Shown here: positions 1 through 11,243 of the stretch, in pieces
Position numbering within the stretch: the first letter of the stretch is position 1
Layout: every line of letters begins with the position of its first letter
Notes under the pieces: generated by a model
The model's database searches: none
What the model saw: only the letters and a program-made list of their open reading frames with translations
What the model was told of the DNA's origin: nothing
DNA from: an uncultured Pseudodesulfovibrio sp.
GTDB lineage: Bacteria; Desulfobacterota; Desulfovibrionia; Desulfovibrionales; Desulfovibrionaceae
Reading direction: 5' to 3'
Length of the DNA stretch: 11,243 bases
NCBI GenBank assembly: GCA_947259235.1
Contig: CAMYLL010000059.1
Location: 1-11,243 of the forward strand
Position numbers and translations under genes: made by a program

Positions 1-538
1 GGACGCCGCTGTCCGCCACGTCGAGGTCTCGGGCCCGGTCCTCGTTGGTGTCGAGCAGTGCGCGCAGGCCGCCGCTGCCGTCATGGGCCATGATTTGCGG
101 GACCATCTCCCGGCCGATGACCGGAGGGTGGCCGCGCCTGCCCTGAAAGCGGGGATAGAGAATGGAGACGTCGCTCTCATTGAAGGCGCGGATGAGACGG
201 GCGACGGTGCTCGGGCGCACCAGCGGGGTGTCTGCCGGGAGGATGAGGAATCCCTCGACCGAGTCGTCGAGGGCGGCCAGGCCGGTGCGGATCGAGGAGA
301 ACATGCCCAGTTTGAAGGATGGGTTGTGGACCGTCTCGGCCCCTGCCTGTTGCGCGGCCTCGGCTACGTCCCCGGCCCGGTTGCCCGTGACCACGACAAC
401 GCGCTCGATGCCGTTGGCGCGGAACAGCTCGATGCACAGGGAGAGGGGCGTGCCGTGGCCAAGGGGGAGCAGGGGCTTGAACCGGCCCATGCGCGAGGAC
501 ATCCCGGCCGCAGGGATTATGGCCGCCAGTCGCTTCAT
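1..538 (-). CDS. MocA-like molybdopterin cytidylyltransferase-type NTP transferase, 5' part
   Basis: The first 179 residues of a nucleotidyltransferase (MobA/MocA fold); the frame runs off the left edge without a stop. The nucleotide-binding signature is AAGMSSRMGRFKPLLPLG (10-27), of the MocA rather than the strict MobA type. Then come the metal-binding region ILPADTPLV (99-107), GRRGHPPVIG (133-142) and GSGGLRALLDT (154-164). MocA-type enzymes join CTP to molybdopterin to give molybdopterin cytosine dinucleotide, the cofactor found in D. gigas Mop, so CTP is the expected substrate. This is inference, since CTP/GTP choice is not certain from these motifs. The ATG at 538 overlaps the xdhC stop (ATGA). 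Related Desulfovibrio proteins, as I recall, may carry an extra C-terminal domain, which would lie outside the window. Confidence 0.88.
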   Translation of the reverse strand, partial: MKRLAAIIPAAGMSSRMGRFKPLLPLGHGTPLSLCIELFRANGIERVVVVTGNRAGDVAEAAQQAGAETVHNPSFKLGMFSSIRTGLAALDDSVEGFLILPADTPLVRPSTVARLIRAFNESDVSILYPRFQGRRGHPPVIGREMVPQIMAHDGSGGLRALLDTNEDRARDLDVADSGV

Positions 539-1554
539 GCGTCGTGTCCCGAGCGGACGGTGATCAGCTCGGCCGCGATGCTGACGGCGATCTCCTCCGG
601 GGTCTGGGCGCCGATGGTCAGGCCGATAGGGCAGTGGCAGCGGTCGATGTCCGTCTGGGTGAAGCCCTCGGCCAGCAGGGCGGCGTAGATGGCGTCGCGC
701 TTCTTGCGGCTGCCTATCATGCCGACGTATCGGGCCGGGGTGCGCAGGGCCCGGGCCAGGACGGTGCGGTCATGCATGTGGCCCCGGGTCAGGATGATGA
801 TGAACGCCTCGCCGTCCACCGGCAGGGACTCATAGCAGGCGTCGAACGAGTGCAGAACCCTGACCTCGTCCGCCTCGGGGAAGCGGTCCCTGTTGGCGAA
901 ATCCTCCCGGTCGTCGAGGACAACGGTGCGAAAGCCGAGCATGGCCCCCATGCGGGCCGTAAACAGGGAGACGTGGCCTGCCCCGAATATGTAAAGCGAC
1001 GCGGGCGGGACGCACGGTTCCGCTATGGTCAGCGCGGAGCCGGAGGACTCGAGACGGGGTGCGCCGTCCCGCATGGCCCGAGTGCAGACGGCCGGGGGGG
1101 CCGCCTGATCGGTGAACACCTTGTGGCTGACGGCCCGCATGGATTCGCCCTGGCTGAAGCGCGTGCACAGCACCGCCCGTTTCCCCGCTCGGAGCAGGGC
1201 ATCAAGCTCTTTGCAGGCGGCGGCGCCGGAGCCTGCGGACGTCATGGTTTCAAGGAGCACGGACATGTCGCCGCCGCAGATCATGTCGGAATTGGCCGCC
1301 ATCTCCTGGGTCAAGTCCACATGGGTGATTCCGGCCGCGCCGTCCCCGGCGTCGAGCATGGCGCGTCCGTCACGGCAGGCCATGGCCTCCATGAGCCCGC
1401 CGCCGATGGTCCCGACGATGGAACCGTCCCTGCGGATGATCATCTTTGCGCCGGAGGATCGCGGCGTTGAGCCGGAGCTGGCCACCACGGTTGCCATGAC
1501 GAGTGTCTCGCCGTTCTCAAGAAGGGTCTGTGCGGAGCGGATGAGGGCTTTCAT
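535..1554 (-). CDS. xdhC: XdhC/CoxI-family molybdenum hydroxylase maturation factor
   Basis: A 339-residue XdhC/CoxI protein. In the family this factor binds molybdopterin cofactor, helps provide its terminal sulfido ligand and hands it to the apo-hydroxylase. The N-terminal XdhC_CoxI domain shows ATVVASSGSTPRSSGAKMII (21-40), GTIGGGLMEA (48-57) and CGG at 93-95. The C-terminal Rossmann-type domain shows IFGAGHVS (189-196), VVLDDRE (211-217), ILTRGHMHD (254-262), VGMIGSRKKR (277-286) and CPIGLTIGAQTPEEIAVSI (308-326). Both domains are complete. The ATG at 1554 overlaps the ligase stop (ATGA), with GGGAG about 9 bases upstream; its TGA overlaps the next start the same way. Co-location with mop makes Mop the obvious client. 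Confidence 0.93.
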   Translation of the reverse strand: MKALIRSAQTLLENGETLVMATVVASSGSTPRSSGAKMIIRRDGSIVGTIGGGLMEAMACRDGRAMLDAGDGAAGITHVDLTQEMAANSDMICGGDMSVLLETMTSAGSGAAACKELDALLRAGKRAVLCTRFSQGESMRAVSHKVFTDQAAPPAVCTRAMRDGAPRLESSGSALTIAEPCVPPASLYIFGAGHVSLFTARMGAMLGFRTVVLDDREDFANRDRFPEADEVRVLHSFDACYESLPVDGEAFIIILTRGHMHDRTVLARALRTPARYVGMIGSRKKRDAIYAALLAEGFTQTDIDRCHCPIGLTIGAQTPEEIAVSIAAELITVRSGHDA

Positions 1555-2864
1555 TCGGTAGTGCTCCCGAGGGGTTGCAAGCGCCGTTTTCCGAGGCCGG
1601 GAACGGCTGGCGCGTCGTCGCTTGTCGTTTCTATTACAATGTCGAGCCGGTTGGCCGCGACAGCCTGTTCAATGACCGGAATCGACCGGAGGGCGGACCT
1701 GACGCTCTGTTCAAGCGTTTTCGCATCGCCGCACGCCCGGATTTTGAGAGTACGGGGGGCGTGCCATGCGGCGAAGTCCCGGAGTCCGGGCAGGGCGTAC
1801 AGGGCTTCGCCCAGCTCCGCCAGGGTGAGGGTCCCGGTCCCGATCCGCGCGCCGTCTCCCATGCGCCTGATGAACGGGTCGAGGAGGCGCAGGGGGCTGC
1901 CGCAGGGACAGGCCGAGGGCAGGATGCGCCCCATGTCCCCGGTGCGGTAGCGGATGAGGGGCATCCCCCGCCGCAGGGGGGTCGTCACCACCATCTCGCC
2001 GAACTCGCCGTCCGGCAGCGGGGCCGCCGTCGCCGGGTCCACTATTTCCAGGTAGACATCGGTCTCCCGCAAATGCATCCCGGAGCCCGGCGCGCACTCC
2101 ACCGCCCCGCCAAGGCCGGTTTCGATCATGCCCCAATGACGGAAAACCTGGCAACCGAATACCCGCCCCACGTTGCGCACGACGGCGTCCGGGGCCGCGT
2201 CCCAGCACAGGAGGACCGACCGTATCCTGCCCCGGGGCAGCCCGCGCGCCTCCCACTCCCGGGCCACCATGTTGACGTGGGCGGCGGGCCCCACCAGGCA
2301 GTCCGCCTTTTCCCCGATCATCTGGTCAATGGCGTCCCCGGCCCGCGTCATCTCGCCATGGGGCACGGCGCGCGCCCCGGCCCGAGCCAGGGCCTGCACA
2401 AGGAGCTGGCCGACGCCGCCGGGGCGCTGGCCGGGCATGAGCACCAGGGCGGTCTGCCCGTGGCCGATCATGGCGGCCATGCCCCAGCGAAAAAAGTCCA
2501 CGGTGGCTTCCATGTCGTCCGGGGTGTGGAAGATGCGCTTGGCCGGGCCTGTGGTTCCGGAGCTGTGCAGGGTGACCACCCGGGCGATCTCGTCCCGGGA
2601 GACGCACAGGAGCTGCTCCGGGGCGTTGCACACAGCCTCGGCCGTCAGCAGCGGCAGGCGGGAAAAGTCATCTGTGGTGCGGATTGCCGGGGCGTCGACG
2701 TCTGCAAGATGCGCTGCGTAGAACGGGCTGGTGTGGCGGGCATGGGCCACGATCTCGCGTAGGCGGGCAAGCTGCCAGCGGCGCACCTGCCCGGAGGAAG
2801 GCGCGACGCCGGGCGGCCACTGCATGCGCTCCGTGAGCCAGCAGTCAAGGGGGCGGCTGGTCAT
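1551..2864 (-). CDS. AMP-forming acyl-CoA ligase, PaaK-like (DVU_1553-like)
   Basis: A 437-residue member of the adenylate-forming family, close in size and layout to phenylacetate-CoA ligases (about 430-440 residues). The ATP-phosphate loop is SSGTTGPAKR (101-110). The adenine-binding region is FRHWGMIETG (241-250), the hinge-side motif MPLIRYRTGD (301-310), then the PaaK-type CPCG (319-322). A C-terminal GKRRL with K426 is the expected catalytic lysine. It should turn a carboxylate, ATP and CoA into acyl-CoA, AMP and PPi; the substrate cannot be told. The ATG at 2864 overlaps the radical SAM stop (ATGA) and follows GGGGGA; the longer frame back to 3143 only overlaps that gene. Because Mop makes carboxylates, the ligase could trap or use its product. 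Equally it may activate a building block for the neighbouring radical SAM/methyltransferase pathway. Confidence 0.87.
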   Translation of the reverse strand: MTSRPLDCWLTERMQWPPGVAPSSGQVRRWQLARLREIVAHARHTSPFYAAHLADVDAPAIRTTDDFSRLPLLTAEAVCNAPEQLLCVSRDEIARVVTLHSSGTTGPAKRIFHTPDDMEATVDFFRWGMAAMIGHGQTALVLMPGQRPGGVGQLLVQALARAGARAVPHGEMTRAGDAIDQMIGEKADCLVGPAAHVNMVAREWEARGLPRGRIRSVLLCWDAAPDAVVRNVGRVFGCQVFRHWGMIETGLGGAVECAPGSGMHLRETDVYLEIVDPATAAPLPDGEFGEMVVTTPLRRGMPLIRYRTGDMGRILPSACPCGSPLRLLDPFIRRMGDGARIGTGTLTLAELGEALYALPGLRDFAAWHAPRTLKIRACGDAKTLEQSVRSALRSIPVIEQAVAANRLDIVIETTSDDAPAVPGLGKRRLQPLGSTTE

Positions 2865-4192
2865 GATTTCCCCCGGTAGAGCGTCTCCCCGTTCATTGCG
2901 GTCAGGTTGTAGGCGCAGAAGGGGACGAGCCGCCCGTCCGGGGCCACCACATGGATGCAGCATCCCTTGAGCCGCTCCAGGTCCAGGGTCCATGCGTCCT
3001 GGAAGGCCATGGCCGAGACGGCCAGGGTGTGCCTGGATGCGCGGGCGATGAAGGCGTCGAGGTCGTCCGGTGCGTCCCCTGCCATGGGGAGGCTTTTCTC
3101 CGGTTGCGCCCACTGTCGTTTGACAAAGGCCTTGGCTTTGCACGCGCCGTCTTCGGCAGCCCGGGGCGTGCAGTCGCAGGGCGCGCCTGCGGAGAGTTTG
3201 CTCAGCTCACGGTCTTCGGTGACCAGATAGTTGGCGTGGAAGGAGCAATGGGAGTGCTCGCAGCCCGGGGGCATGAAATCATGGGCGGCTACCGCACCGC
3301 CTGTCTGGCTCTCCAGCAGCCGCATGAGCTCGGGCAGGGTGATGCGCTGGCTGTCCCCCGGAGCAGCAGGATACCGGCCGAAGTAGCTCACCGGCTGGAA
3401 ATGGACGCCACGGATGCCGGGCGAGTGGTCGGCGGCCAGCCGCAGGATCGCGCCGAGGTCGTGATCGTTGACGCCCGGGACCACCGTGGGAACCAGCACG
3501 ACCCCTATGCCCGCCTCGGACAGGGCGGCTATGGCCTTGAGCTTTGCATCGAGCAGGGGGCGGCCCCGCAGGGAGACATGCGCGGCGTCCTCTGTCCCGT
3601 CGAATTGCAGAAAGGCGGAGTCGAGCCCGGCCTTGGCCAGCCGTGCGGCGTATCCCTGCTCGGAGCCGATGCGCAGCCCGTTGGTGTTGAGCTGGACAAA
3701 AGGGAAGCCCTTGGCTTTTGCCAGACGGATCAGGTGGGGCAGGTCCTGGCGCACGGTGGGCTCGCCGCCCGAGAGCTGGATATTGCACAGGCCCGAGGCG
3801 CGGATGACGTGGTCGAGCAGGTGGCCGACCGCCTCGGGTGAGGGGTCCGCAGGCGCGCCTGTTCCAGATGACGCGAAGCAGACGGGACAGCCGAGGTCGC
3901 ACCGCCATGTCACCTCGAGCACGGCGGTGCAGGTGTGCTGCCGATGCGCCTCGCACAGGCCGCAATCAAGGGGGCATCCCCGGTCCGCCCGGGTGCGCGG
4001 CGTCCTGGGTGGGGAGGGAATCTTTGGCCTGGCCCATTGCCCGAAGCCGGGCTCGCCGCGCCAGACCACTGTCCTGAACGCGCCGTGATCCGGACATTCC
4101 TTGATCAGATAGGTGTCGTCGCCGACAGTTTCGTGGCTGGCGGGAACAGGCCGCAGGCAGACGGGGCAGACGCTCCTCGGGGTTTTGGTCAC
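2861..4192 (-). CDS. Multi-cluster radical SAM protein (TrsS-like, Tes/MJ0619-type layout)
   Basis: A 443-residue radical SAM enzyme. The catalytic cluster motif CDLGCPVC lies at 98-105 (Cx3Cx2C), followed by the SAM-binding SGGEPT at 141-146, LNTNGLR at 168-174 and QFDG at 196-199. Ahead of it is an N-terminal CPVC at 9-12 with C33, rubredoxin-like. A second Cx3Cx2C, CPLDCGLCEAHRQHTC (73-88), also precedes the catalytic motif. I recall this arrangement from the tetraether lipid synthase and MJ0619 pterin methylase group. C-terminal Cys at 311, 316 (CEHSHC), 339, 341, 351, 411, 412 and 426 (PFCAYN) suggest further clusters. From memory, relatives are called radical SAM (seleno)protein TrsS. 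All cysteines I checked are TGC codons here, with no in-frame TGA. The GTG start at 4192 overlaps the preceding stop; no better start lies before the first CxxC. Substrate is unknown; with a methyltransferase and Cys-rich partners nearby, radical methylation or C-C/C-S bond formation on an unidentified molecule is likely. Confidence 0.9.
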   Translation of the reverse strand: MTKTPRSVCPVCLRPVPASHETVGDDTYLIKECPDHGAFRTVVWRGEPGFGQWARPKIPSPPRTPRTRADRGCPLDCGLCEAHRQHTCTAVLEVTWRCDLGCPVCFASSGTGAPADPSPEAVGHLLDHVIRASGLCNIQLSGGEPTVRQDLPHLIRLAKAKGFPFVQLNTNGLRIGSEQGYAARLAKAGLDSAFLQFDGTEDAAHVSLRGRPLLDAKLKAIAALSEAGIGVVLVPTVVPGVNDHDLGAILRLAADHSPGIRGVHFQPVSYFGRYPAAPGDSQRITLPELMRLLESQTGGAVAAHDFMPPGCEHSHCSFHANYLVTEDRELSKLSAGAPCDCTPRAAEDGACKAKAFVKRQWAQPEKSLPMAGDAPDDLDAFIARASRHTLAVSAMAFQDAWTLDLERLKGCCIHVVAPDGRLVPFCAYNLTAMNGETLYRGKS

Positions 4193-4644
4193 GGGAGGGG
4201 CCGCCCCTGTGCCGGGTCCAGGCCGTTGTCGGCCAGTATCTGGCGCAACCGGTCATAGGCCCCGGTCACCAGACCGCCGCATTTGGCCGGGTCAGGCTGT
4301 GTGTTGTCCTTGCCGAGGATGTCGCCGCAGGCGGTTCCGCCATATTGGGCCGTGGCGTCCGCGAACCAGTCGCGCAGAGCCTCCTGCATCAGCGGCAGCC
4401 TGTCGTCGGGCTGTTCCGTGTCCGTGCCTTTCCCGGCATGCAGGGCCAGGAACAGCGAGGCTCCGGTGTACACGCCGCAGGGGCCGGAGCAGTCGCCGCC
4501 CCCCTTGCATAGCCCCATGGCAGCCCGCACCATGTCCGGGTTGTCGCGGCCCATCTCGTCGAGGGCCAGCATCACCAGTATCTGGCTGCAGCAATATCCC
4601 TTGCCCGCCAGTTCCATCACCGTGAGTCCCGTATCGTTCAGCAT
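4189..4644 (-). CDS. C-GCAxxG-C-C family protein (DVU_1555-like)
   Basis: A 151-residue soluble protein of the C-GCAxxG-C-C family, small proteins with conserved cysteines believed to bind a metal or redox centre. Visible cysteines are C18 and C19 (GYCCSQ), C46, C52, C56, C106 and C122; the signature region reads CSGPCGVYTGAS at 52-63, and CGD and KCGG follow towards the end. The length and the helical pattern are normal for the family, which has no established biochemical function that I know of. The ATG at 4644 overlaps the methyltransferase stop by 7 bases (ATGCTGA). The ribosome site is weak (AAAGGCG), so translation probably depends on ribosomes finishing the methyltransferase. It overlaps the radical SAM gene start by 4 bases (GTGA). 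It may be an electron or metal carrier for the radical SAM enzyme, but this is inference. Confidence 0.83.
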   Translation of the reverse strand: MLNDTGLTVMELAGKGYCCSQILVMLALDEMGRDNPDMVRAAMGLCKGGGDCSGPCGVYTGASLFLALHAGKGTDTEQPDDRLPLMQEALRDWFADATAQYGGTACGDILGKDNTQPDPAKCGGLVTGAYDRLRQILADNGLDPAQGRPLP

Positions 4645-5303
4645 GCTTGCGCCTTTTTTTGAGCGATCATGAGATAATAGCCGAGCTGCCGCCGTTCCCG
4701 GCATCCGCAATCGCGGGGACCGCCGTCGTCGGCCAGGATCAGCCGGGCCGCCAGTTCCCTGAGCAGGAGCGAATGGTCTTCGAGGAGGACGACGTCGAAA
4801 CCGCAGGCTTGCACCATGACGCGCGTGGCGGCCAGGGGGATGGCCCGTTGCGCGCAGGAGCCTGCTTCGGGCCGGGCGTCGTCGTTGGCGTGCAAGTCGG
4901 AGAGGACCAGAAATCCGTGGGGAAGCAGGACACGGTGCGCCTCTTCCAGCCCGCGCTCCGGGGCGGGCAGCAGCGAGAGCGCACATTCGCAAAAGACCGC
5001 GTCAAAGGTTGCGTCTCCAAAGGGCAGGCGCTGTGCGTCGGCCTGAACGATCTGAGCTCCCGGCGCGGCGCGGGTCAATTGGCCTGGAGAAGGCTCCACG
5101 CCGTACGCCCGCGCGCCGTAGCGGGAGCGCAGGCGGCTGACCGTTGCGCCCAGCCCGCACCCCACGTCGAGCACCCTGTGGCCCGGGCGCAGCCCGATGC
5201 GCACGGCTGCGCGGTCCGTGAGCCGGAACCCGCCGGGACGCAGGGTGTCCCCGGCTGCAGCGCGCAGCACGGGCTGTTCCCAGAGCGGTACGGACTGCGG
5301 CAC
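4638..5303 (-). CDS. SAM-dependent class I methyltransferase (DVU_1556/TrsM-like)
   Basis: A 221-residue methyltransferase of the UbiE/ArsM-like class I fold. Motif I is VLDVGCGLGAT (44-54), the acidic end of strand 2 is GVEPS (68-72), motif II is QADAQRLPFGDATFDAVFC (87-105), and motif III is RVLLPHGFLVLSD (124-136). It therefore binds S-adenosylmethionine; the acceptor is unknown. Cysteines at 105, 107, 150, 167, 199, 201 and 221 are more than usual for this fold, with a CGC at 199-201 near the end. I chose the GTG at 5303: it is 2 bases after the stop of the preceding gene, has GGAGG 10 bases upstream inside that gene, and the frame before it only overlaps the neighbour. The gene ends in a 7-base overlap (ATGCTGA) with the C-GCAxxG gene and carries an A7 run just before its stop. 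Its place between redox proteins and a radical SAM enzyme suggests a shared modification pathway. Confidence 0.85.
   Translation of the reverse strand: MPQSVPLWEQPVLRAAAGDTLRPGGFRLTDRAAVRIGLRPGHRVLDVGCGLGATVSRLRSRYGARAYGVEPSPGQLTRAAPGAQIVQADAQRLPFGDATFDAVFCECALSLLPAPERGLEEAHRVLLPHGFLVLSDLHANDDARPEAGSCAQRAIPLAATRVMVQACGFDVVLLEDHSLLLRELAARLILADDGGPRDCGCRERRQLGYYLMIAQKKAQAC
4653..4659 (-). other. In-frame slippery heptamer A-AAA-AAG at the methyltransferase end
   Basis: The methyltransferase reads CAA AAA AAG shortly before its stop, so the bases A-AAA-AAG stand in the frame needed for -1 slippage, the same heptamer as in E. coli dnaX. A -1 shift would continue GGC GCA AGC ATG into the C-GCAxxG frame and give a fused protein. 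I found no strong stem-loop 5-9 bases downstream and no clear internal Shine-Dalgarno stimulator, so this is a candidate only. Confidence 0.35.
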
Positions 5304-5305
5304 GG

Positions 5306-5521
5306 CTACTTGTCCTCCAGCAGTTGCTCCACCTGCCGCATCTTGCCCATGGCCAGGGATTCCGGGATGAGCACCATGTTGCACGCGGGGCAGACCGGCA
5401 GCTCCACGTTGAACAGGGAGTCCAGGTATTTCAGTTCCACCGGTTTGCGGACGAGCGGTTCGCCGCAGGTTTTGCACTGCCAGCCCGTGACGTCCGCTTC
5501 GGGTATTCTGATCATGCTCAT
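5306..5521 (-). CDS. Small two-CxxC redox or zinc-ribbon protein (DVU_1557-like)
   Basis: A 71-residue soluble protein with two CxxC pairs, CKTC at 16-19 and CPAC at 44-47, spaced like a rubredoxin or zinc ribbon. Between them is a hydrophobic, family-like stretch (ELKYLDSLFNVELPVC, residues 29-44). There is no signal peptide or membrane segment. The C-terminus (GKMRQVEQLLEDK) looks helical. From memory, it matches the uncharacterised small proteins named after DVU_1557 that accompany Mop in Desulfovibrio. The metal (Fe or Zn) cannot be decided from sequence. It starts in a 4-base overlap with the oxidoreductase and is followed 2 bases after its TAG by the methyltransferase start. A role as an electron carrier or scaffold for the neighbouring radical SAM or Fe-S proteins is inference. 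Confidence 0.8.
   Translation of the reverse strand: MSMIRIPEADVTGWQCKTCGEPLVRKPVELKYLDSLFNVELPVCPACNMVLIPESLAMGKMRQVEQLLEDK
5314..5318 (-). promoter_or_regulatory. Ribosome binding site of the methyltransferase
   Basis: GGAGG lies 10 bases upstream of the GTG at 5303, within the last codons of the two-CxxC gene. It supports the GTG start rather than an earlier codon in the long open frame that reaches back to 5600. Confidence 0.6.
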
Positions 5522-7779
5522 GCCTGTCCTCCCATGATGCGCATGCGGTGGCTCCACGTGTTGTGGACCAGATAGCCGCCGTCCGTTTCCTCGAATTCAA
5601 CCCAGTAGGTGACCACGGTCGGGCGGAACGAGGCGAGGCTGTGGCCTGTCTCGCTGTTATGAAAGCATCGTCCTGTCTCCCGGACCTGGAGGAGCACCTT
5701 CTGGATGTCGGTTTTCAGGATGCGCCGCTCTTCCATGGCCCGGGCGGCCTCGTCGGTGAAGCGGACCTCAATGGACTCGTGCGGCAGGGACGCATCGTCC
5801 CCGGTTGACCGCCACAGCTCTGTGAGGAGGCGCTCCCTGAGGCGGGCCCTGTTCTCGCGGCGGGCGGAGTAGCCCGGGGACGGCCTCGCTCCTGGGTCGC
5901 CCCCGACGGGGAACAGCAGGTCGTAGAGATGCACGGCCCGTTTGCCCGTCTTGGCGAGCATGTCGCGGCACATGGCGCAATAGGTGACGAAGTCTTCGTC
6001 CGCAGCGGCGGCCCTGCGTCTGGCCGCGGCCGTGCCCAGCTCCGGGTTGGCCTCGGCCAGCAGGCCGCCGTAGCCGCAACATTCGGTGGTGGCCCCGGTC
6101 AGCTTCGGCTCCACGGTGGGGATGTGCAGCTGGTCGAGCAGGGCGCGGACGTCCTCCAGCAGGGCCGGATTGTGGCGCGCCCCGCAGGGGTCGTTGATGG
6201 CCAGGGGGGCGCTTGTGACGGATTCGCCGCCCACCCCCAGCGCCCGCAGAATGGACCAGTGCGAGGATATCTCGGCATCGGGAAGCCGGTCCCGCAGGAT
6301 GTTGAGGCAGGTGGGACAGGCCACGATGAGCTTGGGCCTGCCCAGCTCCTCCCACTGGCTTCTGAGCAGGGCCACGGATTCGTCCATGAGCGCCTCGCGC
6401 CCGGACCACTGCGCCGGAGCACCGCAGCAGCGCAGCATCAGGCCCACGCTGCCGATTCGCTGGCGCAGGTCGGCATAGGCGGCCTCCACCGCGTCGGGCG
6501 CGGACGCCGTGAGCTGACAGCCGGGGAAGAACAGGTACTCGCTGGTCTCGGCCCCCGGCGCATGGCGGGCCAGGGCGCTCCTGTCGCCATTGGCAAAGGC
6601 CATGTCGCGCAGGGCGAACTCGTGGGCGGACTGGGGCATCGTGCCTTTCCTGACCATGGTGCGGCGCGCCTCCAGGCAGACCTCGGCCATGGAGAAATCC
6701 TCGGGGCACAGGGTTTCGCACAGGCCGCACAGCATGCAGGAGTTGATCATGGTGTTCGCCTGCCGGGTTCCCATGACGATGGATTCGTTGTTGTAGACCT
6801 GACGCACGTAGATCTTGGGATAGGACTTGTAGTGCTTGAGAAATTCGCAGTTTTTCACGCACTCCATGCATTCGCACTGGAGACATCGCCGGGCCTCCTC
6901 ATGCGCCTGTTCCTCGCCGTAGCCGGTTCCGGCGGGGATGGCCGGGGCCGGGGCCACGCCCTCCACGTTTGTATACAGCCGGGTGGCGCAGGGGCCTTCC
7001 TGCTCGCGGCCGGAGACCATGGAGACGCCCTGGGTGAACCGCTCAATGGAGTTGGCGGCGCGGCGTCCGGCCGCGGCCTGCATCACGGGCGAGGTCTCGC
7101 CCGCACGGCTGGCAAAGAGACCGGTGTGCAGGGTTCCCAGGGTGATCTCGTCGGGCTGCCCGAGGTCCGTCAGGGACAGGGGCGCGGCGTCGGAGTCGAT
7201 GAACACGGCGTCATGCGTCTCAAGGAGGGAGTCGAGGAGCGTGGAGTCGATTGTGACGTCGGTCCTGATCCTCGCGCCCAGCGTCGCAAGGTTTTCCATC
7301 TCCCGGAGAAAGGCGTCGCGCGGGAGCTGTGACTCGGGCAGGTCGAGCAGGCTGCCGCCGGGATTCTGGCAGTGAAGGGTGACGTCAAAGCCCCTGCGGG
7401 CCATCTCCCATGCGGCGCACAGGCCGGTCATGCCGCCGCCGATGATTGCCACGGCCTTGCCCCGCGAGGGGAGCGGGCGGGGTGGGGCCACGGGCGCGGC
7501 ATGCTTGGCGCAGAAGCGCTCCAGGGCGCCCATCTCGATGCCGCCGCCCAGGGGGGAGCGGACGCAGGCGTCCCGGCACGGCGCGTCGCACAGGCGGGCG
7601 AGCACCCCGGGCAGGGGCATGGTTTTGGCGATGGTTGCCCAGGCCTTGTCCCACCGTTTCTGTCCCAGCAGGGCGCAGACGGTGCGGACATCCACATGCA
7701 GGGGGCACGCCGCCGTGCATCGGGGGCTTTCCTCCTGGATGCACTTGCGTTCCCAGTGTCTCAGCTCGGCCTGTTCCAT
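5518..7779 (-). CDS. Iron-sulfur/flavin oxidoreductase with two CCG modules, likely redox partner of Mop
   Basis: A 753-residue protein with several redox modules. Residues 1-95 resemble the Fe-S domain of glutamate synthase small subunits (C13, C21, C25, C64, C68, C72). A dinucleotide-binding turn, AIIGGGMTGLCAAW (111-124), and a GRRAANSIERF segment (238-248) mark a GltD-type FAD part. Only about 170 residues separate residue 108 from 280, too few for the usual FAD plus NAD(P)H domains, and no second glycine-rich turn is visible. Next come Cys groups at 299-311 and 348-358 (CMLCGLCETLCP), like a two-cluster ferredoxin domain. Two CCG modules follow, with CCG at 451-453 and 567-569 and further Cys at 421, 488, 491, 532, 601 and 604, as in HdrB/HdrD-type subunits. 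The last 115 residues match nothing I recognise. The ATG at 7779 (MEQAELRHW) is preferred over the one at 7818, which lies inside the stem-loop; its ribosome site is weak (GCGGGGT). I recall this family as 'pyridine nucleotide-disulfide oxidoreductase/dicluster-binding protein'. Electron transfer with Mop is inferred. Confidence 0.88.
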   Translation of the reverse strand: MEQAELRHWERKCIQEESPRCTAACPLHVDVRTVCALLGQKRWDKAWATIAKTMPLPGVLARLCDAPCRDACVRSPLGGGIEMGALERFCAKHAAPVAPPRPLPSRGKAVAIIGGGMTGLCAAWEMARRGFDVTLHCQNPGGSLLDLPESQLPRDAFLREMENLATLGARIRTDVTIDSTLLDSLLETHDAVFIDSDAAPLSLTDLGQPDEITLGTLHTGLFASRAGETSPVMQAAAGRRAANSIERFTQGVSMVSGREQEGPCATRLYTNVEGVAPAPAIPAGTGYGEEQAHEEARRCLQCECMECVKNCEFLKHYKSYPKIYVRQVYNNESIVMGTRQANTMINSCMLCGLCETLCPEDFSMAEVCLEARRTMVRKGTMPQSAHEFALRDMAFANGDRSALARHAPGAETSEYLFFPGCQLTASAPDAVEAAYADLRQRIGSVGLMLRCCGAPAQWSGREALMDESVALLRSQWEELGRPKLIVACPTCLNILRDRLPDAEISSHWSILRALGVGGESVTSAPLAINDPCGARHNPALLEDVRALLDQLHIPTVEPKLTGATTECCGYGGLLAEANPELGTAAARRRAAAADEDFVTYCAMCRDMLAKTGKRAVHLYDLLFPVGGDPGARPSPGYSARRENRARLRERLLTELWRSTGDDASLPHESIEVRFTDEAARAMEERRILKTDIQKVLLQVRETGRCFHNSETGHSLASFRPTVVTYWVEFEETDGGYLVHNTWSHRMRIMGGQA
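5528..5532 (-). promoter_or_regulatory. Ribosome binding site deciding the start of the two-CxxC protein
   Basis: GGAGG sits 6 bases before the ATG at 5521, inside the last codons of the upstream oxidoreductase. It settles the start at MSMIRIPEAD rather than the ATG 36 bases further upstream, and the ATG overlaps the upstream TGA (ATGA). Confidence 0.75.
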
Positions 7780-7805
7780 GTCGACCCCGCGTGAAAGAAG
7801 GTGAA

Positions 7806-7839
7806 GACAGCGGCCCATGCGCGAGCACGGACCGCTGTC
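7806..7839 (-). promoter_or_regulatory. 15-bp stem-loop between mop and the downstream oxidoreductase
   Basis: The outer arms GACAGCGG and CCGCTGTC pair perfectly. A U-G pair and the inner arms CCGTGC and GCATGG (one G-U pair) continue the helix to a 4-base loop, TCGC, giving 15 continuous pairs in 34 bases. The two wobble pairs form only in RNA copied in the direction of the genes; on the other strand they become C-A and A-C mismatches, which points to a function in the minus-strand transcript. It starts 18 bases after the mop stop and ends 26 bases before the likely start of the next gene. The sequence after it (TTCACCTTCTTTCACG) is pyrimidine-rich but is not a clean U-run. A 3'-end stabiliser, processing site or leaky terminator for mop is likely. 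Confidence 0.7.
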
Positions 7840-7857
7840 GGTTGCGGTGTGTTTGTC

Positions 7858-10575
7858 TTAACCCTTGAGTCCGGCGAGGACCTTTTCGGGCAGTGCGGGC
7901 AGCTTCTTGATGCGCACGCCGCAGGCGTTGTAGATGGCGTTGATCACGGCGGCATGGGGGCAGGTGAGCGGGAGCTCGCCCACGCCGGATGCGCCAAAGG
8001 GACCGTCGGGCCGCGCGCTCTCGATATACTCCAGCACCATGTCGTCCGGGATCTGCTTGATGTACGGGAAGCCCGCGCCTTTCATGGTGGCGTGCTTCTC
8101 GATGTCCTCGTAGTCTTCATACAGGGCCAGGCCGATGGCCTGGGCCAGCCCGCCGTACATCTGGCCGTCCACGACCAGCTTGTTGTTGATCTTGCCGATT
8201 TCGGCCACGCAGGTCATCTTTTCCACCGTGGTCTTGCCGGTGGAAAGCTCCACGGCCACCTCGGCCAGGAATGCGCCGTACATGTAGCAGGCAAAGGGGC
8301 TGCCCTGTCCGTTGTCGTCACAGGCAGTGGCCGGAGCGGTCCATTTGCCGTTGTAGCGGACGGGGATCTTCTCATCGATCATTTCCTGATAGGTGCGGAA
8401 GGAGCCGTCGCTCTTGCGCATGCCGCCCAGGAGCAGCTCGCAGGCGGCCTTGATGCCCTGGCCCACGACGACCTGGGAGCGGCTGCCGCCGGCGGGGCCG
8501 CCGTTGGGGCAGTTGCGGGTGTCGTTGAGGACGATCTTGATCTGGTCGGGAGCCAGGCCCAGGGGGCGCAGGGCCTCGTGAGCCGTGCCCAGGGTCCCCA
8601 TGTCCGCGCCCTGGCCGTGGTCGTGCCAGCAGGTCAGCACGGTGACCGTGCCGTCCTCGTTGAGCTGGGTGTCCACCTCGGCGGTGTCGGGCCCGTCCAG
8701 GCCGGAGCCGTAGACGCCCAGGGCGATGCCCACGCCGCGTTTGACCTCGGCGGTGGAGTTGGCCGCCGCGCGTTTTTTTGCTTCGGCGTACTTGGGTCGG
8801 AGGGCGTCCAGGATGTCGGGCAGGGAGTAGACTTCCGGGTCCTGCCCGGTGGGAGTCGTGGACCCCTTGCGATAGGCGTTCTTGTAGCGCAGCTCCAGCG
8901 GGTCCATGCCGATCTTCTCGGCCATCATGTCCACCAGCACCTCGGAGGCGAACTCCGACTGCGGGGAGCCGTAGCCGCGGAAGGCGGAGCCCCAGGCGTG
9001 GTTGGTGGCCACGGTGCGGCCCATGCCGCGGATGTTGGCGATGTCATAGCCCGCGCCGATGAACTGGGCGCCGCGCAGGGTCAGCAGGTCGCCGAACTCG
9101 GAGTAGGGGCCGTGGTCCACGGTCCAGTCTGTTTCCATGCCGAGCATCTTGCCGTCGGCGTCGCAGGCCAGGCGCACGTTCATGAAGAACGGGGACCGCT
9201 TGCCGGTGTAGGTCTGTTGCTGATGCCAGGAGTAGTTCAGGAACACGGGCTTGCCCGTGGCGAGGCAGGCCGCGCCCACAAGGGCCTCCATGGTGGGAGA
9301 GAACTTGTAGCCGAAGGTACCGCCGGCCGGGTTCTGGACCATGATCAGGTTCTCGGGCTCCACGCCGAGGCCCGGGGCGATCATGTACAGGTGCAGGTGC
9401 AGGCCGATGGATTTTGAGTGGATGCACAGCTTGCCCTCGTCGTCGAGATAGGCCAGGCCGACGTCCGGCTCGATGGGCATGTGGGGCTGGCGGCCGACGT
9501 AGAAGTCGTCCTCCAGCACGTGGGCGGCCGAGGCGAATATGGGCTCGGTGTCCTCGCCCTTGGCGATGCGCTGCTCGAAGTAGACGTTGGGGGTTCCGGG
9601 GTGAATCTCTATGGCGTCGTCGCCCATGGCCGCCGGGGCGCTCATGTACTCGGGCAGGCGCTCCAGCTCGACCTTGACCTTGGCGGCCGCGGCCTTGGCG
9701 TGCTTGTCCGTGTCGGCGCAGACGATGGCGATGGCGTCGCCGTACTGGAATACCTTCTCGTCGCACAGGATCGGACGGTCCCAGCCGTCGCCCTTGTTGG
9801 ACGGGAAGGTGATCAGGCCGGTGATGCGGTTCTTGCCCTTGATGTCCTTGTGGGTGACGACCTTCTCGACGCCGGGCATGGCCTCGGCCTCGCTGGTGTC
9901 GATGGACAGGATCTTTGCGTGGGAGACCTCGGACTGGACCAGGGCGAGCTTGAGGGTTCCCTGGGGCATCTTGATGCCCAGGTCCGCGCCGTAGTCGAGG
10001 GTTCCGGTGACCTTGGCGACGGCCGTGGGCCGGGGGTATTTCGTCCCCCATATGCGGCCGTCCTCGGGAATGGTGAAGGAGAGATCGTCGATGGATTTGT
10101 CGCCCCGCAGAACGGCGGCGGCGTCCAAGACGGCATCCACGAGCTGCTTGTAGCCGGTACAGCGGCAGGCATTGCGATATTTCTGGAACCAGTCGCGGAT
10201 GTCGTCGCGGGTGGGGCTGGGGTTGGAGTCCAGCAGCGCCTTGGTGGAGACGATGAAGCCGGGGGTGCAGAAGCCGCACTGCGCGCCGCCGTGGGCCATC
10301 CATGCCACCTGGATGGGGTGCATGTTGTCCGGTGTGCCGATGCCCTCGGTGGTGGTGATGACGGCGTTTTCCTTGACGCGGCTCATCTTCATGGAACAGG
10401 AGCGGATCAGCTTGCCGTCCATGATGACGCTGCAGCTGCCGCACTGTCCGGTTCCGCAGCCCACCTTGACGCTGGTCAGCCCCAGATTCTCGCGCAGGAC
10501 ATTGGCGAGGGATTCGTCCTGCTCGCATATCACCGTCCTGGTGACGCCGTTGACGCGGAGTAGTAATTTGATCAT
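7858..10575 (-). CDS. mop: Aldehyde oxidoreductase (molybdenum hydroxylase, xanthine oxidase family)
   Basis: A cytoplasmic-type, 905-residue single-chain molybdenum hydroxylase that oxidises aldehydes to carboxylic acids (R-CHO + H2O to R-COOH + 2e- + 2H+). The plant-type [2Fe-2S] cluster is bound by C40, C45, C48 and C60. The second cluster is bound by C100, C103, C137 and C139 (NACRCTGYK). The molybdenum domains follow from about residue 170: GRQPHMPIEPDV (361-372), GGTFGYKFSP (418-427, with the F421-G422 seen in D. gigas Mop) and GVGELPL with the catalytic glutamate at E867 (E869 in D. gigas). Remembered D. gigas Mop is 907 residues and the N-terminal 430 residues align without gaps; the cluster cysteines have the same numbers. 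There is no FAD domain between the Fe-S and Mo parts and no Tat signal, as in that enzyme. The cofactor expected is molybdopterin cytosine dinucleotide. The start is fixed by AAGGAGG 9 bases upstream and by alignment; the stop is TAA. Natural substrate and electron acceptor cannot be read from the sequence. Confidence 0.97.
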   Translation of the reverse strand: MIKLLLRVNGVTRTVICEQDESLANVLRENLGLTSVKVGCGTGQCGSCSVIMDGKLIRSCSMKMSRVKENAVITTTEGIGTPDNMHPIQVAWMAHGGAQCGFCTPGFIVSTKALLDSNPSPTRDDIRDWFQKYRNACRCTGYKQLVDAVLDAAAVLRGDKSIDDLSFTIPEDGRIWGTKYPRPTAVAKVTGTLDYGADLGIKMPQGTLKLALVQSEVSHAKILSIDTSEAEAMPGVEKVVTHKDIKGKNRITGLITFPSNKGDGWDRPILCDEKVFQYGDAIAIVCADTDKHAKAAAAKVKVELERLPEYMSAPAAMGDDAIEIHPGTPNVYFEQRIAKGEDTEPIFASAAHVLEDDFYVGRQPHMPIEPDVGLAYLDDEGKLCIHSKSIGLHLHLYMIAPGLGVEPENLIMVQNPAGGTFGYKFSPTMEALVGAACLATGKPVFLNYSWHQQQTYTGKRSPFFMNVRLACDADGKMLGMETDWTVDHGPYSEFGDLLTLRGAQFIGAGYDIANIRGMGRTVATNHAWGSAFRGYGSPQSEFASEVLVDMMAEKIGMDPLELRYKNAYRKGSTTPTGQDPEVYSLPDILDALRPKYAEAKKRAAANSTAEVKRGVGIALGVYGSGLDGPDTAEVDTQLNEDGTVTVLTCWHDHGQGADMGTLGTAHEALRPLGLAPDQIKIVLNDTRNCPNGGPAGGSRSQVVVGQGIKAACELLLGGMRKSDGSFRTYQEMIDEKIPVRYNGKWTAPATACDDNGQGSPFACYMYGAFLAEVAVELSTGKTTVEKMTCVAEIGKINNKLVVDGQMYGGLAQAIGLALYEDYEDIEKHATMKGAGFPYIKQIPDDMVLEYIESARPDGPFGASGVGELPLTCPHAAVINAIYNACGVRIKKLPALPEKVLAGLKG

Positions 10576-10584
10576 TCGAGCGTT

Positions 10585-10591
10585 CCTCCTT
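10585..10591 (-). promoter_or_regulatory. Strong ribosome binding site of mop
   Basis: AAGGAGG sits 9 bases before the ATG at 10575. It is the closest match to the full Shine-Dalgarno consensus among the genes here, fitting high, independent translation of the catalytic subunit. Confidence 0.8.
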
Positions 10592-10613
10592 GGTCTGTCT
10601 TTGTTTCTGGTGT

Positions 10614-10638
10614 CGCTGGCTTCGAGGGTGAAGCCGCG
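10614..10638 (-). promoter_or_regulatory. Stem-loop in the mop leader
   Basis: On the minus strand GGCTTC and GAAGCC form a perfect 6-bp stem around a 6-base loop (ACCCTC). Beyond a single bulged A, CGC and GCG add three more pairs. It lies 10 bases past the stop of the molybdopterin-binding gene and 38 bases before the mop start. No U-run follows, so it does not look like an intrinsic terminator; a processing or mRNA-stabilising role is inference. I saw no convincing sigma70 or sigma54 promoter in the 73-base gap. Confidence 0.45.
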
Positions 10639-10648
10639 TGTCTGAAAA

Positions 10649-11243
10649 CTATTTTCCGAAGGGACAGGTCGGATAGCGGCAGGTCTCGCACCCTGCGCAA
10701 AAGCCGCCGTGCCCCATGGCCACGATGTCCTGGCGGGTGATTGTCCGGCCCGCCAGCAGCCGGGGAACCACCAGGTCGAAAATGCTGGCCCGGTAGTACA
10801 TGACGCAGCCGGGGAGCCCCAGGATGGGCACGCCGTCGAGCATGGCGATCATGAACATGACGCCGGGGAAAGTGGGCGCGCCGTAGGTGACGACCTCGGC
10901 CCCGGTGGCCCTGATGGCCGTGGGGGTCTGGTCGTCCGGGTCAACCGACATGCCTCCGGTGACCACGACCATCTCGGCCCCCTCGGCGATGAAGGCGAGG
11001 ATGGCGTCGCGGGTCATGGCCGGATCGTCGGAGGCGAAACGCTGATCCATGACGGTGGAGCCCAGCCTGTCGAATTTTTCGCGGATGACCGGGCCGAATT
11101 TGTCCTTGATGCGGCCGTGGTAGACCTCGCTGCCCGTGGTCACCAGACCCACCTTGTGATGGATGAAGGGGAGGACTCCGACCACGTAGGGATACTCGGC
11201 GCAGATGGCCTCCACGCGCCTGATCTTTTCCTCGTCGATGACA
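10649..11243 (-). CDS. Molybdopterin-binding protein (MoaB/Mog/MoeA-type domain), 3' part
   Basis: The last 197 residues are visible; the frame stays open to the right edge, so the start lies outside. An internal GTG at 11215 could be read as a start but the frame continues upstream of it in the same style. The MoaB/Mog fold is shown by VGLVTTGSEVYHGRI (visible residues 31-45), VVVTGGMSVDPDD (92-104) and ILGLPGCVMYY (140-150); this family binds molybdopterin and acts in adenylylation or molybdenum insertion. After this comes a cysteine tail, Cx2Cx2Cx4C at visible residues 182, 185, 188 and 193, ending in CPFGK, suited to binding an Fe-S cluster or zinc. I recall the same tail in molybdopterin-binding proteins beside molybdenum hydroxylases of anaerobes. 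It is first in the visible gene order, 73 bases before mop, so a role in loading cofactor into Mop is inferred. The stop is TAG. Confidence 0.88.
   Translation of the reverse strand, partial: VIDEEKIRRVEAICAEYPYVVGVLPFIHHKVGLVTTGSEVYHGRIKDKFGPVIREKFDRLGSTVMDQRFASDDPAMTRDAILAFIAEGAEMVVVTGGMSVDPDDQTPTAIRATGAEVVTYGAPTFPGVMFMIAMLDGVPILGLPGCVMYYRASIFDLVVPRLLAGRTITRQDIVAMGHGGFCAGCETCRYPTCPFGK

Follow-up and report, generated by a model that had tools for sequence, protein, structure and literature searches.

Mycofactocin, an electron carrier made by a radical S-adenosylmethionine (SAM) enzyme, was proposed from the invariant C-terminus of its precursor together with "only-if" enzymes (PMC3023750). 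LysW is a carrier of the zinc-ribbon type with its C-terminal glutamate as the attachment point (PMC10433800), and the tetraether lipid synthase Tes makes a carbon–sulfur bond to its C-terminal cluster en route to product (PMC9433317). The aldehyde oxidoreductase (AOR) of Desulfovibrio gigas served as the structural model of its family (PMC10223205), and its role has been given only as likely, namely energy supply or detoxification (PMC3877041). Here, these systems are compared with a locus of an uncultured Pseudodesulfovibrio sp. (GenBank assembly GCA_947259235.1, contig CAMYLL010000059.1, positions 1 to 11,243; this whole stretch of 11,243 nucleotides is referred to as the window). It encodes Mop, an AOR of the D. 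gigas type, and a module with six core genes, coding for a large flavin and iron–sulfur protein (diclust), a small protein with two CxxC motifs (DVU_1557 family), a SAM methyltransferase, a C-GCAxxG protein, the radical SAM enzyme TrsS and an adenylate-forming ligase. The module may be a carrier system of which Mop is a user.

All genes described here lie on the minus strand. The five that the earlier note had picked out from the letters between positions 1 and 5,521 were found there, each above the cut-off of its NCBIfam model: the DVU_1557 family redox protein with two CxxC motifs and the C-terminus -LEDK (5306–5521; NF045645, 103 bits, cut-off 60), the DVU_1556 family methyltransferase (4638–5309; NF045667, 218 bits, cut-off 155), the DVU_1555 family C-GCAxxG-C-C protein (4189–4644; NF045669, 169 bits, cut-off 103), TrsS with Tes-like metal ligands (2861–4192; NF045646, 673 bits, cut-off 490) and the DVU_1553 family PaaK-like, adenosine monophosphate (AMP)-forming ligase (1551–2864; NF045666, 441 bits, cut-off 300). 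The diclust gene (5518–7818; NF045663, 1023 bits, cut-off 530; Pfam Fer4_20, Fer4_17 and CCG), the product of which has flavin adenine dinucleotide (FAD)/nicotinamide adenine dinucleotide binding, a 4Fe-4S dicluster and two CCG motifs, is a further member of the unit. From upstream to downstream, the order is MoCF, mop, diclust, DVU_1557, methyltransferase, C-GCAxxG, TrsS, ligase, XdhC, nucleoside triphosphate (NTP) transferase. All seven junctions of the eight genes from diclust to the NTP transferase (7818 to 2) are overlaps, of 4 bases at six of them and of 7 bases at the other; the gap between mop and diclust is 39 bases and that between MoCF and mop is 73 bases. Internal starts were chosen for DVU_1557, the methyltransferase, C-GCAxxG and the ligase, for which the mechanical list of open reading frames has earlier, upstream starts. 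Thus, the overlaps reach through XdhC and the NTP transferase, as the earlier note had stated, and the single transcript that it took from them is suggested by this arrangement. Judged by names, the likeness to the D. vulgaris order also stands, the family names DVU_1551, 1553, 1555, 1556 and 1557 running in order and DVU_1559 having been named Aor (PMC10920352). To call the module undescribed was too strong, because all its families are catalogued in NCBIfam (by model scores, the window genes match the TrsS family NF045646 and the DVU_1551–1557 set) and a published table classes TrsS among radical SAM selenoproteins, crediting it to Haft and Tolstoy 2025 (PMC13188914). In the accessible literature, searches with the locus tags, with TrsS and with Mop plus radical SAM returned no function for the module; the paper naming TrsS lies outside this search. 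What goes beyond the family listing, and was worked out in this analysis, is a one-way dependence of Mop on the module, a Mop-free class of the module and a fixed C-terminus of DVU_1557.

An even set of 198 genomes from a single phylum was searched with seven families. TrsS, the methyltransferase and the ligase occurred in the same 20 genomes, whereas Mop, diclust and DVU_1557 occurred in the same 14, all of them within the 20. These counts include TrsS over its cut-off in 19 genomes plus a partial TrsS in G039, Mop over its cut-off in 13 plus a copy split across two contigs in G104, and the methyltransferase over its cut-off in 18 plus matches just below in G104 (148 bits) and G131 (144 bits), the next best scoring at most 106. 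The ligase was over its cut-off in 20 genomes (in G075 on a different contig from TrsS) and the C-GCAxxG family in 16. DVU_1557 and diclust each passed in 14, with weak matches to DVU_1557 in three other genomes and two weaker ones to diclust. Eleven lower TrsS rows (210–377 bits, in nine further genomes) were judged Tes-like by score and excluded. Chance clustering was set aside in view of the identical 20-genome and 14-genome sets, and the co-occurrence of Mop and TrsS gave a Fisher p of 4e-17 when kinship is ignored. Within each of five families (f1, f15, f16, f35 and f49), the sample has both complete genomes and genomes having neither TrsS nor Mop over cut-off, which speaks against common ancestry as the only cause. 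In this sample, then, Mop occurs only with the module (all five families of the earlier note were present in 14 of 14 Mop genomes), and the module can do without Mop, as it does in six of its 20 genomes.

Beyond this phylum, a TrsS alignment was run against GTDB species genomes, and 80 loci of at least 576 were inspected. A mop gene was visible in 52 of the 80, and 46 of these 52 had all six core genes. Counted with our own hidden Markov models at lenient score limits and with two DVU_1557 fusions added by hand, the 52 loci contained diclust in 52, C-GCAxxG in 51, DVU_1557 in 51 (two as the fusions), the methyltransferase in 48 and the ligase in 48; some of the misses fall at contig ends. The record titles of these 52 loci come from nine NCBI phyla, and one names none; some of the loci are from metagenome-assembled genomes (MAGs), the titles of which may be wrong. 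For the 28 loci with no mop in view, the whole genome was searched: Mop was over cut-off elsewhere in 15, six had lower matches, and seven had none. Distance correlations between families across the 52 loci were 0.80 for TrsS and ligase, 0.80 for TrsS and diclust and 0.82 for ligase and diclust, and those of mop were 0.60 with TrsS, 0.55 with the ligase and 0.75 with diclust; as values without a housekeeping control, all of these are only suggestive. The claim that the genes form a conserved unit tied to Mop rather than a chance grouping was thus borne out. The profiling that the earlier note called for supports it in one direction, Mop occurring only with the module, and not in the other, since the module is found without Mop in the six genomes, and five further TrsS loci come from genomes with no Mop over cut-off. 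The genes were not scattered independently of mop in most genomes, because the Mop-linked class was the larger in both samples.

On a quick tree of 99 TrsS and four Tes-like rows (Shimodaira–Hasegawa-like approximate likelihood ratio test, SH-aLRT, without bootstrap), 88 of the 99 TrsS rows formed one Mop-linked clade with an SH-aLRT value of 100. Mop was encoded in the locus for 64 of them and elsewhere in the genome for 16 (15 over cut-off and the split copy in G104); three (L086, L112 and L130) had a Mop fragment or a score just below cut-off, and five, all from MAGs (L105, L107, L117, L122 and L138), had no Mop over cut-off. The latter were labelled Mop class from contig ends or gene order, and a single change of the Mop label on the tree depends on this labelling. 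The remaining 11 rows (L055–L060, L116, L123 and L151–L153; class B) come from genomes without Mop over cut-off, L152 having a relative at 799 bits. In the class B loci, the ligase was found in 10 of 11, the methyltransferase and a DVU_1557-like frame in nine each, a two-CCG protein in seven (five half-length and two full-length) and C-GCAxxG in two; L151 and L153 had only TrsS and a weak ligase. Their neighbours vary and include benzoyl-CoA-reductase-like (CoA, coenzyme A), TRAP transporter, corrinoid and bis-molybdopterin guanine dinucleotide (bis-MGD) genes. In one of them, a Eubacterium MAG (L151:60–5373), a run of adjacent genes comprises two TrsS, a ligase, a DUF5714-like gene and one resembling lipoate-protein ligase (275 bits, below the cut-off of 280). 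A TrsS-DUF5714 fusion was seen in a Desulfosporosinus MAG (L100:9962–12139). TrsS as phage cargo was set aside, as no close relative was found in viral_contigs.

The small DVU_1557 protein is set apart by its C-terminus. Among 81 loci with a DVU_1557 above 30 bits, lysine was the last residue in 79 and the end was exactly -EDK in 75; all 75 proteins of the Mop class end in E[DE]K (72 EDK and 3 EEK). The other module proteins have mixed C-termini, as does TrsS, taken as a yardstick, and mop products end in lysine in 30 of 62 cases; across the called frames of 100 loci, -EDK was the end of no other protein. Searching 5.8 billion proteins yielded 943 relatives, and all 120 listed end in -LEDK, a count to be read with caution, as top-scoring relatives favour matching tails. 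In 40 aligned rows, C16, Y32, C44, C47, E65, E69 and K71 were invariant, and C19 nearly so. The last 62 residues have a median isoelectric point of 4.8 (range, 4.2–8.8). By the same measure, 87 of 91 LysW relatives end in glutamate. As a small acidic protein with two CxxC motifs and a fixed terminal residue, DVU_1557 resembles LysW and ArgW; it differs in its tail, which is -LEDK and not -EDWGE, and in its partner ligase, which is of the AMP-forming PaaK type and not LysX. LysX is of the ATP-grasp type. From its sequence, DVU_1557 thus looks like a carrier protein, and it is not called a LysW here. The likeness to mycofactocin is one of organization: in each case, a radical SAM enzyme goes together with a small partner whose C-terminus is invariant, and enzymes are found only alongside it. 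DVU_1557 differs in being a protein of about 60–74 residues with conserved cysteines over its length, and TrsS scored 59 bits against the mycofactocin maturase (MftC-family) model, below its cut-off of 265.

A fixed C-terminus can also serve binding. The tail might be a docking arm like that of DsrC, or an end used for binding, and carry no group, the module then making a metabolite unrelated to it. In L108 and L128, DVU_1557 is fused behind diclust with the -LEDK end kept free, so that the tail could dock into diclust, which counts for such a role. The DsrC arm contains a cysteine, in contrast to the tail of DVU_1557. Moreover, docking alone leaves unexplained why the ligase, TrsS and the methyltransferase share the same 20 genomes, and we consider it quite unlikely.

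The ligase bears on another alternative, a metabolic pathway in which Mop is one step and in which the module makes the aldehyde for Mop or activates the acid from it as a CoA ester; that the module makes or consumes the Mop substrate was also one of two options offered in the earlier note. A PaaK-like ligase (110 bits to PaaK, 4r1l) and a carboxylate-forming enzyme do share the operon, and most ligases have a C-terminal domain of CoA-ligase length, including that of the window with 127 residues beyond the YxTGD motif. Some Mop-free loci, in addition, adjoin TRAP transporter, benzoyl-CoA-reductase-like and corrinoid methyltransferase genes. In 13 Desulfovibrio-like loci, however, only 43–69 residues follow YxTGD, compared with 98–155 in the other readable ones (a 14th short ligase, in L080, is possibly cut by a contig end). 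The domain for the CoA half-reaction thus looks lost there, and the name CoA ligase is doubtful at least in those 13 loci. A pathway through Mop also has to contend with the six of 20 module genomes that lack Mop and with the absence of a recurring neighbour pathway among the class B loci examined. It is a serious rival, if on balance a rather unlikely one.

The best solved relative of TrsS is Tes (GDGT-MAS; PDB 7tol), to the model of which it scored 335 bits, short of the cut-off of 450. TrsS keeps the ligands of all four Tes metal sites as described in PMC9433317: C9, C12, C33 and H36 of the rubredoxin site, C73, C77, C80 and H83 of the N-cluster, C98, C102 and C105 of the radical SAM cluster, and C411 and C426 with the labile Met395 of the C-cluster, C316 being the likely third cysteine. 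Across 99 rows, the 11 N-terminal ligands were present in 99, C316 in 98, M395 in 96, C411 in 95 and C426 in 96; the exceptions are gaps, bar one serine, and the ligands are retained in class A and class B alike. From these we infer that TrsS, by analogy with Tes, may pass through a carbon–sulfur step at its cluster. In the column of Tes Tyr459, which is strictly conserved in Tes (PMC9433317), none of the 95 TrsS rows with a letter has tyrosine (V in 65, E in 11, I in 9 and others in 10). Since the Tes variants Y459F and M439A are still active (PMC9433317), Tyr459 and Met439 do not decide the reaction. A role of TrsS as a lipid synthase was set aside, given the score below the Tes cut-off and the changed Tyr459 column. 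Two further features of TrsS were noted. Cys88, near the N-cluster, is present in 99 of 99 rows, is Ile in the Tes of M. jannaschii and is Cys in two of four Tes-like outgroup rows. In L117 (3897–6395), a single frame of 832 residues contains both a DVU_1551 NTP transferase (424 bits) and, fused to it, TrsS (629 bits).

The CCG part of diclust, with its two CxnCCxnCxxC motifs, is of the HdrB double-CCG type. Both motifs are found in the window and in 77 of 82 diclust rows, the other five being contig-cut or split pieces. Unlike in HdrB-type proteins, this part is joined to a GltD-like FAD domain and to a C-terminal domain of about 90 residues. The latter domain is conserved (window 5518–5802) and is a separate gene in class B; the copy in L057 had no Pfam match at E 0.01.

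The mop gene of the window (7858–10575; NF045668, 1695 bits, cut-off 1100) encodes a single-subunit molybdenum AOR of the D. gigas MOP type, the product scoring 1453 bits against PDB 1dgj and 1451 bits against 1sij. Downstream of the ligase lie XdhC_rel_AOR, an XdhC-type maturation factor for AOR (535–1554; NF045664, 432 bits, cut-off 350), and a MocA-like NTP transferase of the DVU_1551 family, the C-terminal half of which is beyond the window edge (2–538; NF045665, 229 bits over model positions 2–176 of 359, below the cut-off of 315). XdhC and the NTP transferase probably serve the cofactor of Mop itself, and their presence in the same operon, like the restriction of Mop to module genomes, would suit a maturation system in which the module acts on Mop by modifying its molybdenum cofactor, one of its residues or its Fe-S clusters. 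The best argument for such a system comes from cofactor-enzyme fusions, namely NTP transferase to TrsS in L117 and ligase to phosphatase in L093, as well as NTP transferase to phosphatase in L086. Inactive D. gigas AOR, in which the dithiolene is oxidised, has been isolated as well (PMC3877041). Purified D. gigas AOR, on the other hand, contained an ordinary pyranopterin cytidine dinucleotide and showed activity without a sulfido ligand (PMC3877041, PMC10223205), which weakens cofactor building for Mop, the other option of the earlier note; the gene content of D. gigas itself lies outside this analysis. In L144, the six core genes all lie next to a gene for a Mop that shares 93 percent identity over 520 residues with crystallised 1dgj. 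Because the module, in addition, exists without Mop, we regard maturation of Mop as highly doubtful. The profile is better matched by a third possibility, in which Mop uses a carrier or electron-acceptor system, than by either of the two that had been offered.

We therefore tentatively favour, at somewhat less than an even chance, a dedicated carrier system, most likely for redox, which would be made by the core and used by Mop. The reasoning follows the mycofactocin proposal by analogy, because a radical SAM enzyme, an invariant-ended small partner and enzymes found only with it recur here. The core (diclust, DVU_1557, the methyltransferase, TrsS, the AMP-forming ligase and usually C-GCAxxG) would be self-contained in making and working the carrier. 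DVU_1557 would be the carrier protein or its precursor, with the fixed tail as its working end. The ligase would adenylate a small carboxylate and attach it to the carrier, for which the terminal lysine is the most plausible site; TrsS would carry out radical C–H activation, probably via a cluster-sulfur intermediate as in Tes; and the methyltransferase would complete the carried group, with which the two-CCG part of diclust might then swap electrons. In the Mop class, electrons from aldehyde oxidation would pass from Mop via diclust to the carrier system. In its most specific form, which we think unlikely, DVU_1557 would be a new kind of carrier: a zinc-ribbon protein acylated by the PaaK-like ligase at its C-terminal lysine, on which TrsS and the methyltransferase build a sulfur-bearing redox swinging arm that diclust oxidises or reduces, the D. 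gigas-type AOR being one dedicated client.

Several observations weigh against a carrier system of this kind. The DVU_1557-like proteins of class B score low (26–59 bits), and, counting three of 26–30 bits, lysine is last in six of nine (3 EDK, 1 EAK and 2 SYK) and third from the end in the other three. The conserved cysteines could mean that DVU_1557 is an ordinary electron-transfer or docking protein. It had no LysW model match at E 0.001, and its alignment with LysW (hhalign 86 percent, E 5e-6) covers only 32 zinc-ribbon columns, the tail lying outside. Purified D. gigas AOR works with dye in the absence of DVU_1557, and flavodoxin is its proposed partner in the literature (PMC3877041, PMC10223205). 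In the carrier model, the C-GCAxxG protein is left without a part. L083 has mop, and no DVU_1557 frame was found there, in a locus that looks frame-broken. The profile, finally, rests on one unbiased sample, from the only phylum that gave one.

Further genes were noted in the window and in other loci. The window begins, on the coding strand, with a MoCF_biosynth (MoeA/MogA-like) protein, the 5′ end of which is cut by the window edge (10649–11242; PF00994, 86 bits) and which carries a cysteine-rich C-terminal tail (10649–10700; CAGCETCRYPTCPFGK). In 41 of 100 loci, phmmer finds a CobC-like histidine phosphatase, which often comes directly after the NTP transferase or the ligase (for example, L099:14782–15390); fusions join it to the ligase in L093 (11332–13290) and to an NTP transferase in L086 (5624–7390). 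A cysteine desulfurase-like protein was seen in seven loci (that at L093:8513–9646 being nearest to TIGR01977 and selenocysteine lyase, below cut-offs), and nine loci have a sigma-54 dependent regulator close to the operon (that at L114:15401–17326 being nearest to PrdR and DhaR, below cut-offs). Mop relatives of 740–809 bits were found in eight genomes (L046–L050 and L052–L054), five of these without TrsS. Some of them adjoin bis-MGD-like and class V aminotransferase-like genes, and no FAD subunit, which diclust would replace, was seen beside them, in both cases as judged by eye, on short flanks for the subunit, and without a domain scan.

If the most specific form of the carrier model is true, a LysW-, mycofactocin- or lipoyl-like cofactor system has been overlooked next to an enzyme that has been under study for decades. 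Should DVU_1557 bear a group on its terminal residue, a new protein-bound cofactor would be added, in loci titled from nine bacterial phyla. The profile turns the old question of the role of Mop into one that is directly testable.

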